The position numbers and the translations under genes were made by a program. The notes below the pieces were generated by a model. The model ran no database searches. It was given only the letters and a program-made list of their open reading frames with translations, and was not told the origin of the DNA. From Taxawa tesnikishii (nom. ined.) (Eukaryota > Ascomycota > Dothideomycetes > Dothideales): a stretch of 64,000 nt of DNA. Positions 50,873 to 52,543 of the stretch are shown here, piece after piece; within the stretch, counting starts at the first letter, position 1, and every line of letters begins with the position of its first letter. The stretch is from positions 434,001 to 498,000 of the forward strand of contig JAPDRO010000011.1 in NCBI GenBank assembly GCA_030247885.1, written 5' to 3'.

Positions 50873-51951
50873 TTCCGCGATTGATCGTCGCAACGCGTCA
50901 AACCAGAACACCCTCCATCAATTGAACTACCATTATGGCGCCTCAAACTCGTGCTCTTGCTACTATCTCGCGTAACCGACGTCGCTAGACTAAGCTCTTA
51001 CTAGCTACGAGAAATTAGATCGTTAGAGCGGCTGCTACTAGTATGCCACAATATAAGATACGCGACCTTTTAACGTACTAGCTTCTACTATTAACAGGAC
51101 TATTAACAACGCCTCCAACAATCTATAAGGTATCTTAAAACCTCGCTTAGGCCGTCTACAACGTTATATAGAGCGTATAAAGCGTACTATCCTTCGTTAC
51201 GTACGTAACAATTTATTTAAAACTTATAGTAAGCTTTTAAAGGATCTCTAACTAAATTATAGCTACTTAACTATTTACTAGATTCTAAAGGATTAAAGTA
51301 TTTAAGATTAGATTACTAAGAAGCGACCTTTATTATTAGAGGCTACTACTAAAAAGAGAAGAAAATAGTGTAAATTATATAAGTATTAAACTATTAAAGA
51401 CTAGTTAAAAGTTATCTTTTTAGACGAGTATTTTATAAAGCGTAAAGCTAGTAAACTAGCTATATAAGTATAGCGAATATTTAGCTAAGTATATAATAAA
51501 GATAAGGTATAACTATTTAATAAGAGTAAGAATATACGTATTATAGTATAAGGTAATATCTATAATAATTAAAAGACTAAGTTAATTATTATACGTAAGG
51601 ATATAAAGTTAAAGAAGTAAGGCTACTTAGTAAACTTATATATTAATACTCTTACTATAAGCCTACTCTCTATATATAAAGAAGAACGACTATTTTAATA
51701 AGATAATACTAAAGTCTATATAGCTAAAAAGTTAGTAGCTTTTCTAAAGAAAAATAGTATTAATTTATTAAAAGACTAGCCTCTATACTTACTAGATTTA
51801 AATTTAATTAAGTACCTTTAGACTATACTAAAGAAGAAGGTTTTTAAGCTCTTTCCTAATATAAATCGCTAGTTTAATAGTAAGGAATATATTTATAAGA
51901 AGATAGAGGATACACTTATTAGTATATAGGATTAAGTTAATAGTAAGAAAG

Positions 51952-52325
51952 TGTTAACATGTATAACCCTACCTAAGGTATACAAGAGTCGATGCTCACG
52001 TGACGTCACTTTTGTCACAAGTTAAAAGGTTATGAGCCCGGGTTAGCGCGTTGGTTAAATCGTGATCTCGATGTACGACAGAAGGTCACGAGTTCGATTC
52101 CCACCTGAGTTGTGGCAGAAGCGCGTAAAATCCCAAACGGGAGTAGAGCCTCGGCAAGCCGCGGAGTCGGCCAATAAGCCCGGAAGGTTGCGAGCCTCGA
52201 ATCCATTAGCGACGTTGCACGCTTGTACCCCTTACTAGGGTTAGGGGAGTGTTAACATGTATAATCCTACCTAAGGTATACAAGAGACGATGCTCACGTG
52301 ACGTCACTTTTGTCACAAGTTAAAA
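51952..52325 (+). mobile_element. Short non-autonomous insertion with 76-bp terminal direct repeats (TRIM/SMART-like) and a tRNA-like core
   Basis: Two near-identical 76-bp direct repeats (51952-52027 and 52250-52325, both starting TGTTAAC) enclose 222 bp. The whole is bordered by GAAAG on both sides (51947-51951 and 52326-52330), a 5-bp target duplication. This is the layout of terminal-repeat retrotransposons in miniature. A purine-rich stretch (TAGGGGAG) precedes the right repeat. The core begins with a tRNA-like region. It encodes no protein, is GC-rich and lies inside the AT-rich dead transposon, so it arrived after that element decayed and is young. Family naming is inference; a SINE with duplicated flanks is the main alternative. 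Confidence 0.75.
52032..52112 (+). other. tRNA-like sequence with A- and B-box-type Pol III promoter
   Basis: The segment starts AGCCCGGGTTAGCGCGTTGG (acceptor strand and D-arm/A box) and contains GAGTTCGATTCCCACC (T-loop/B box). The two ends can pair over eight of nine positions as an acceptor stem. T-stem pairing is poor, so it is tRNA-derived rather than a functional tRNA gene. It most resembles the general layout of elongator tRNAs. Confidence 0.6.
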
Positions 52326-52543
52326 GAAAGTATATAATTATGTTACTAGTATAATAAATAGGATTTAGACTTACCTTTATAATAATAGCTAGTATATTAA
52401 ATACTAACGAAGATTACTTTTCCTAAATTATAACGTAAATCTATAGTGTTTAAACTATTCTATACTTAGTTTACTAGTCAATTGCTAGTGTTATAAGTAC
52501 AAAGCATATGGTAGTGCATCCGAGGGTAGGATTCAGATTCGGA

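Follow-up and report, generated by a model that had tools for sequence, protein, structure and literature searches.

What kind of element is formed by a 374-bp unit that combines terminal direct repeats with a tRNA-like core, and how would such a unit be copied? The question arises from a window of 64,000 nucleotides (C3:434001-498000, the whole stretch of DNA that was analysed) and was followed through the 29.37-Mb genome of 34 contigs to which the window belongs. The evidence leads with high confidence to a non-autonomous LTR retrotransposon (TRIM) of Copia type. The features of the window copy are as follows.

51947..51951, no strand: left 5-bp target-site duplication (TSD), GAAAG, by direct reading.
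51952..52027, plus strand: 5' LTR, 76 bp, TGTTAACATG...AAGTTAAAA, by comparison of copies and repeats.
52028-52249: internal region, between the two LTRs.
52028..52041, plus strand: primer-binding site (PBS), GGTTATGAGCCCGG, 14 nt, abutting the 5' LTR and complementary to the host initiator tRNA-Met.
52043..52110, plus strand: tRNA-Ile-derived unit, from shuffle tests and alignment with host tRNA-Ile.
52044-52054 and 52092-52100, plus strand: A-box-like motif and B box within that unit.
52151..52213, plus strand: possible second, more decayed tRNA-Ile-like unit, from shuffle tests that are suggestive only.
52238..52249, plus strand: purine-rich tract, GGGTTAGGGGAG, abutting the 3' LTR, by direct reading.
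52250..52325, plus strand: 3' LTR, 76 bp, 74/76 identical to the 5' LTR, with TTTT at 52308-52311.
52326..52330, no strand: right 5-bp TSD, GAAAG, by direct reading and from element-free related repeats.

Direct reading bounds the 374 bp at 51952..52325 with GAAAG on both sides. The first-pass annotation had described near-identical 76-bp direct repeats, a GAAAG target duplication and the absence of a protein, and this description holds in full: the repeats agree at 74 of 76 positions (79 nt at 97% by ungapped extension) with coordinates and length exact, the duplication is exact on both flanks, and the only ATG-initiated reading frames of at least 30 aa, of 58 and 55 aa, provide no mobilisation protein. 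The arrangement is that of a TRIM, with two direct LTRs (76 bp) in an element of less than 1000 bp (374 bp), a PBS at the 5' end of the internal region, a polypurine tract immediately 5' of the 3' LTR (its pure-purine part is AGGGGAG, 52243-52249), and multiple insertions with TSDs of fixed length. LTRs usually end in TG...CA, and the TG...AA termini seen here depart from that. The 5' LTR also contains TTTT at 52010-52013 and two motifs that we take to be an E-box (CACGTG) and a CRE-like site (TGACGTCA).

It had been proposed that copies with different 5-bp duplications and the same ends would establish a family, and that solo 76-bp repeats would support the terminal-repeat reading; all three are found. 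The whole-genome search returned at least 31 matches, comprising at least 21 full-length copies (72-100% identity) and at least 10 LTR-only copies, all of these counts being lower bounds, so that the single copy named beforehand as fatal to a family is not what the genome holds. Perfect 5-bp TSDs of differing sequence flank 17 of the 21 full copies, with agreement at 4, 3, 2 and 0 of 5 positions in the remaining four, and the ends of the copies are constant except for RIP-type changes. Among the solo LTRs, a perfect TSD is present in 7/10, one shows 3/5 and two show 1/5 (for three of them, excess 3' sequence was first removed to leave 76 bp). Two of the three solos that fail are explained by an inversion. 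At L026 (C1:105749-106812), two solo LTRs lie in opposite orientation about 1 kb apart with their TSDs exchanged, the flanks reading GATAA>LTR>TTAAC...TTATC<LTR<GTTAA. They are the reciprocal products of recombination between oppositely oriented 76-bp LTRs, which flipped the intervening segment. Imperfect TSDs are thus left without explanation in 4/21 full copies and 1/10 solos.

Two clusters of three copies were observed, one within 1.6 kb (L015, C30:1421035-1422658) and one within 10 kb (C11:675365-684886), and two of the three copies in each have a perfect TSD of their own. The clusters therefore likely arose by several insertions, each independent, in AT-rich DNA of subtelomeric regions.

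These results bear directly on whether the unit could be a tRNA-derived SINE moved by a LINE, with incidental terminal repeats. Such a reading would account for the A and B boxes in a head that resembles tRNA-Ile. It is barely credible in the face of constant 5-bp TSDs, a PBS, a purine tract, LTRs and solo LTRs, together with the lack of a 3' poly(A) or simple tail, and movement in the manner of a SINE is refuted by them. A core freed of the 76-bp repeats and ending in a poly(A)-like tail, the other outcome held to count against the terminal-repeat reading, did not appear: with the internal region alone as query, the search found the same 21 full-copy places and nowhere else.

The target itself can be seen without the element. 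When the flanks of the window copy were joined with the element removed, 31 matches were obtained. Two of these correspond to the window, and of the remaining 29 places 27, by our count, align in one piece through the junction at 68-81% identity, examples being C13:171451, C8:506452 and C2:846912. Six of the best empty sites overlap matches to DDE_3 transposases of the Tc1/mariner type (the one on C13 below the family cut-off); therefore, the TRIM was inserted in an older repeat of this type. Contig C2 (about 1.16 Mb) deserves separate mention. It holds 34 of the 44 DDE_3 transposase matches, many of them without stops, and none of the 31 TRIM matches. In its interior, near 865 kb, lie two oppositely oriented telomere arrays. 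This contig is possibly an accessory or fused chromosome.

Two age classes can be told apart among the full copies. Seven young copies, including the reference L003, lie 0 to 6 positions away from L003, and three of them share all 374 bp yet have different TSDs, which indicates recent movement. The window copy has six differences from L003, and its own LTRs differ by two. In the fourteen older copies, 1021 differences from L003 were counted, 966 of them being C>T or G>A (polarity is approximate because L003 is a young copy and not the ancestor); 525 of these transitions fall at CpA/TpG and 230 at CpG. The older copies have been decayed by RIP of the CpA type, and in the most decayed ones 22 of 23 CpA and 20 of 20 TpG sites are changed. 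Such decay is near saturation at CpA even though the element has only 374 bp, which is below the usual length limit for RIP in Neurospora; spread from flanking repeats is a possible cause.

Most of the copies also lie towards contig ends. Less than 40 kb separates 17/21 of them from a contig end (14/14 older and 3/7 young copies), against 9% expected, and the proportion is 12/16 when copies less than 12 kb apart are counted once. Among the first six contigs, 10 ends out of 12 bear telomere repeats (TTAGGG). Along with the CpA-type RIP and the first-pass reading of a fungal element, these repeats suggest that the host is an ascomycete. A search of the whole genome for 5.8S rRNA gave no match; the rDNA may be absent from the assembly, masked, interrupted, or missed by the search.

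Which enzymes would move an element that encodes none? The PBS is complementary at 14/14 nt to nucleotides 26-39, in the anticodon arm, of the host initiator tRNA-Met. Where priming occurs at the anticodon loop, the primer is a 39-nt fragment of the tRNA. A search of the genome for the PBS pattern with at most one mismatch found 21 places, against 7 for a control pattern: nine TRIM copies, three initiator tRNA genes, four Copia elements and five others. The position of the PBS agrees with the anticodon-loop priming known from Drosophila Copia and Ty5 (PMC10886601). The four Copia elements found here correspond to the four highest scores among 47 RVT_2 matches, contain 0, 1, 2 and 5 stops, and have LTRs of about 167 bp that start with TGTTA and 5-bp TSDs in 4/4 cases. 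In each, GG and the PBS directly follow the LTR with the same spacing as in the TRIM, and the sequence after the LTR equals that of the TRIM at 19/20 nt in three elements and at 18/19 in the fourth, where AG stands for GG. Their purine tract, GAGGAGGAG, occupies the same place as that of the TRIM, which is shorter. Because the PBS and its spacing are common to the four best-scoring Copia elements, Copia enzymes acting in trans are the likely movers of the TRIM, as judged from these sequence signals.

Beyond the PBS, little is shared. The match between the TRIM internal region and the leader, LTR and 3' end of the Copia element C5 is confined to the first 20 nt (19/20), and the TRIM LTRs have no similarity to those of the four Copia elements beyond the TGTTA-type start, the 3' ends being AAAA in the TRIM and ACT in Copia. 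Therefore, the exact Copia partner is not proven. Kojima (PMC10886601) likewise describes a fungal Helenus family whose LTRs are unlike those of its Copia relative. When 30 of the 47 RVT_2 matches, each taken with flanks of 1.5 kb, were searched by BLAST with the LTR and the internal region of the TRIM, no other partner emerged; this is a weak test given that such flanks miss most of the LTRs and that most RVT_2 copies are heavily mutated. The only strong matches, in L043, were set aside as partner evidence, as they come from a TRIM copy adjoining that Copia element, and three 20-nt matches with E 0.73 were discarded as chance.

The initiator tRNA-Met genes themselves have an unexpected structure. 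Three were found, at L069 (C29:579412-579461 and upstream), L068 (C11:89583-89643 and upstream) and, in reverse orientation, L067 (C1:570375-570424 and upstream), and in all 3/3 the D-arm is split by inserts of 53-59 nt. The inserts start with GTATGT or GTAAGC, contain a branch-like CTAAC, CTGAC or TTAAC, and end in CAG or TAG, with GT...AG boundaries set by pattern; in sequence they look like spliceosomal introns. They lie after tRNA nucleotide 11 (C11, C1) or 22 (C29, C1), the C1 gene having both. With the inserts removed, a 72-nt sequence is obtained in each case, which ARAGORN identifies as tRNA-Met(CAT) in 3/3, the C11 gene showing several exon differences (93% identity). A genome search with the spliced tRNA returned the same three places and no unsplit copy. 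To our knowledge, spliceosomal introns in tRNA genes are highly unusual, and no report of them was found in the literature searched by title and abstract start; the present survey covered the initiator tRNA-Met genes alone.

The tRNA-like core is a separate matter from the primer. A- and B-box-like motifs had been noted in the first-pass annotation, and the B box (GTTCGATTC, 52092-52100) is indeed an exact consensus match; the A-box-like motif (TAGCGCGTTGG at 52044) lacks a single base relative to that of host tRNA-Ile (TAGCTCAGTTGG). The spacing from A to B is 48, against 46 in host tRNA-Ile. Compared with 20 host tRNAs (the matches outside the tRNA-dense and presumably organellar contigs C25, C26 and C28, with 48 of 68 matches dropped), the internal region scores 45 and 40 with two tRNA-Ile(AAT) genes and 26 with the next tRNA. 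The host tRNA search scored 63 of 926 candidates, and "tRNA-Ile" here denotes the best among the isotypes sampled. Shuffled sequences, each given its best of the 20 host tRNAs, average 23.7 with a maximum of 37, and none of 300 reaches 45; against tRNA-Ile alone, 0/2000 reach the internal-region score. Under lenient scoring, 52/63 aligned pairs are identical between 52043..52110 and the host tRNA-Ile L078. That the core is derived from a tRNA, as first suggested, is thus borne out by the shuffle controls.

For 52151-52213, 13 and 19 of 2000 shuffles score as high against the two tRNA-Ile genes, and 20/300 against the best of 20 tRNAs, which is suggestive only of a second tRNA-Ile-like unit. 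With the same 20 host tRNAs, no tRNA likeness was found on the reverse strand of the internal region (66/300 shuffles as high), in the Copia leader (126/300), or in the TRIM LTR, which scores 18 (252/300 on the plus and 207/300 on the minus strand); a tRNA part within the LTR was accordingly rejected. The RF00005 covariance model gave no match at E <= 10 in six copy-bearing loci, ARAGORN reported no tRNA in the window (run with the bacterial code) or in the TRIM loci retrieved, and neither the internal region nor the tRNA-like unit folds more stably as RNA than shuffled sequence does (z 0.13 and -0.53, respectively). Therefore, no intact tRNA or cloverleaf is claimed. These negatives, together with the marginal second unit, speak for a chance resemblance. 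Chance is nonetheless very unlikely and was rejected, as no shuffle in 2000 equals the match to tRNA-Ile and the two tRNA-Ile genes stand clear at the top of the 20 tRNAs. On sequence comparison, then, the core is tRNA-Ile-derived and no longer scores as a tRNA.

Could the core drive transcription? Pol III initiates 5-12 nt ahead of the 5' end of a tRNA, and by tRNA geometry a start is predicted at about 52025-52032, at the LTR/PBS junction, with an end at the TTTT of the 3' LTR. Since a start from its A box would fall at this junction, the core is unlikely to be the promoter of the genomic RNA; most probably it rides along as a passenger or serves as RNA-structure filler. The predicted Pol III RNA would be without a 5' repeat (R), which rules out normal first-strand transfer, and therefore the Pol III mechanism put forward for Helenus does not carry over without change. 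A TRIM that is actively driven by Pol III (TRIMp3) from an internal promoter can still be envisaged, in which the core would recruit TFIIIC and the RNA, running from the junction to the 3' LTR TTTT, would act in trans or by an unusual route, for instance as a decoy for initiator tRNA and Copia proteins. Its B box and box spacing would suit this role, the internal region has no earlier TTTT, and the TTTTG of the LTR resembles host terminators, with a T-run of at least 4 within 20 nt in 19/20 tRNA genes and G after the run in 15 of those 19. Kojima (PMC10886601) takes conservation around the Helenus boxes as a sign of function. The seven young copies here are nearly identical, so box conservation within this genome is uninformative, and with the shortened A box, the missing R region and the lack of an RF00005 match, a Pol III-driven element is possible but improbable. 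Still less probable is the more specific proposal that a captured tRNA (perhaps a tRNA-Ile dimer) between the PBS and the purine tract supplies a functional internal Pol III promoter, whose PBS-to-3'-LTR RNA, carrying 14 nt antisense to the initiator tRNA, would act in trans on the Copia replication machinery.

A putative Pol II promoter in the LTR is the simpler assumption. CACGTG is present in the LTR of 7/7 young copies. The CRE-like TGACGTCA occurs in the window copy only and is absent from the other six of the seven, and therefore the particular Pol II promoter is putative. For a Copia-type TRIM transcribed in this way, the cycle would begin with a Pol II transcript from the 5' LTR through the 3' LTR, which Copia proteins would package and copy in trans. 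Cleavage of the initiator tRNA-Met would yield a 39-nt 5' half to serve as primer at the complementary site, 52028-52041, the purine tract would prime the second strand, and Copia integrase would probably insert the product with the 5-bp duplication that is observed. Recombination between LTRs would leave the solo LTRs found in the genome, and the copies would then decay by RIP, as their mutation pattern indicates. The tRNA-Ile-like core may have been acquired between the PBS and the purine tract by reverse transcriptase template switching into a packaged tRNA, or alternatively by insertion of a tRNA-derived SINE.

The combination of a TRIM with a tRNA-derived part had been called unusual in the first-pass annotation, which knew of no description. 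Such a combination has been described: Helenus elements (TRIMp3; Kojima 2024, PMC10886601) are tRNA-bearing TRIMs of 311-1263 bp from fungi, animals and a plant, and share with the element here a small non-coding LTR structure, tRNA-derived sequence, a likely Copia helper, 5-bp TSDs and solo LTRs. What survives is the layout. By the definition given there, Helenus carries tRNA-like sequence in its LTRs, whereas here it is internal only, the LTR scoring like shuffled sequence. The element could conceivably belong to Helenus in Kojima's sense, if the tRNA part was deleted or truncated in the LTRs and persisted only internally. The PBS in the initiator tRNA-Met anticodon arm, the Copia association (suggested by the shared PBS only), the 5-bp TSD and a length within the range of fungal Helenus in the same text agree with this origin. 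It is improbable, given LTRs without tRNA likeness and fungal hosts recorded there as rusts (Pucciniales) and Agaricomycetes, against a CpA-type RIP that would be an ascomycete sign.

Other small LTR elements show the same partial overlap. The TRIM and SMART elements outlined in PMC10886601 share two short LTRs, a PBS, a purine tract, the lack of coding capacity and mobilisation in trans, and SMARTs (292 bp), likely moved by Copia, have internal sequence but not LTRs in common with their putative helper; unlike the present element, none is given a tRNA-derived core in that outline. The ascomycete TRIMs of Cochliobolus heterostrophus (PMC4112212), partly Copia-related, and of Venturia (PMC4646964) are presented in the available excerpts without mention of a tRNA-like part. 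Cassandra, as outlined in PMC10886601, likewise joins a TRIM to a fragment of a Pol III gene, but this fragment is 5S-derived and lies in the LTR, and its transcript has 18-nt terminal repeats, unlike the element here. Within the literature searched by title and abstract start, no TRIM with a tRNA-like internal region was found beyond PMC10886601. A tRNA part solely between the LTRs is thus an unusual TRIM layout, set apart from Helenus as defined in PMC10886601. One small genome contains recently inserted, identical copies along with solo LTRs, unoccupied target sites and related Copia elements, which makes the layout testable.

Helenus and Cassandra suggested that a Pol III promoter in the LTR still gives an RNA with repeats at both ends, hence the uptake of small-RNA genes. 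That route is closed to a TRIM whose tRNA part lies between the LTRs, and therefore the capture of a tRNA is separable from the use of its Pol III promoter. Ultimately, a TRIM with an internal tRNA points to reverse transcriptase template switching on packaged tRNAs, or to some other role at the RNA level, as the source of such sequences.
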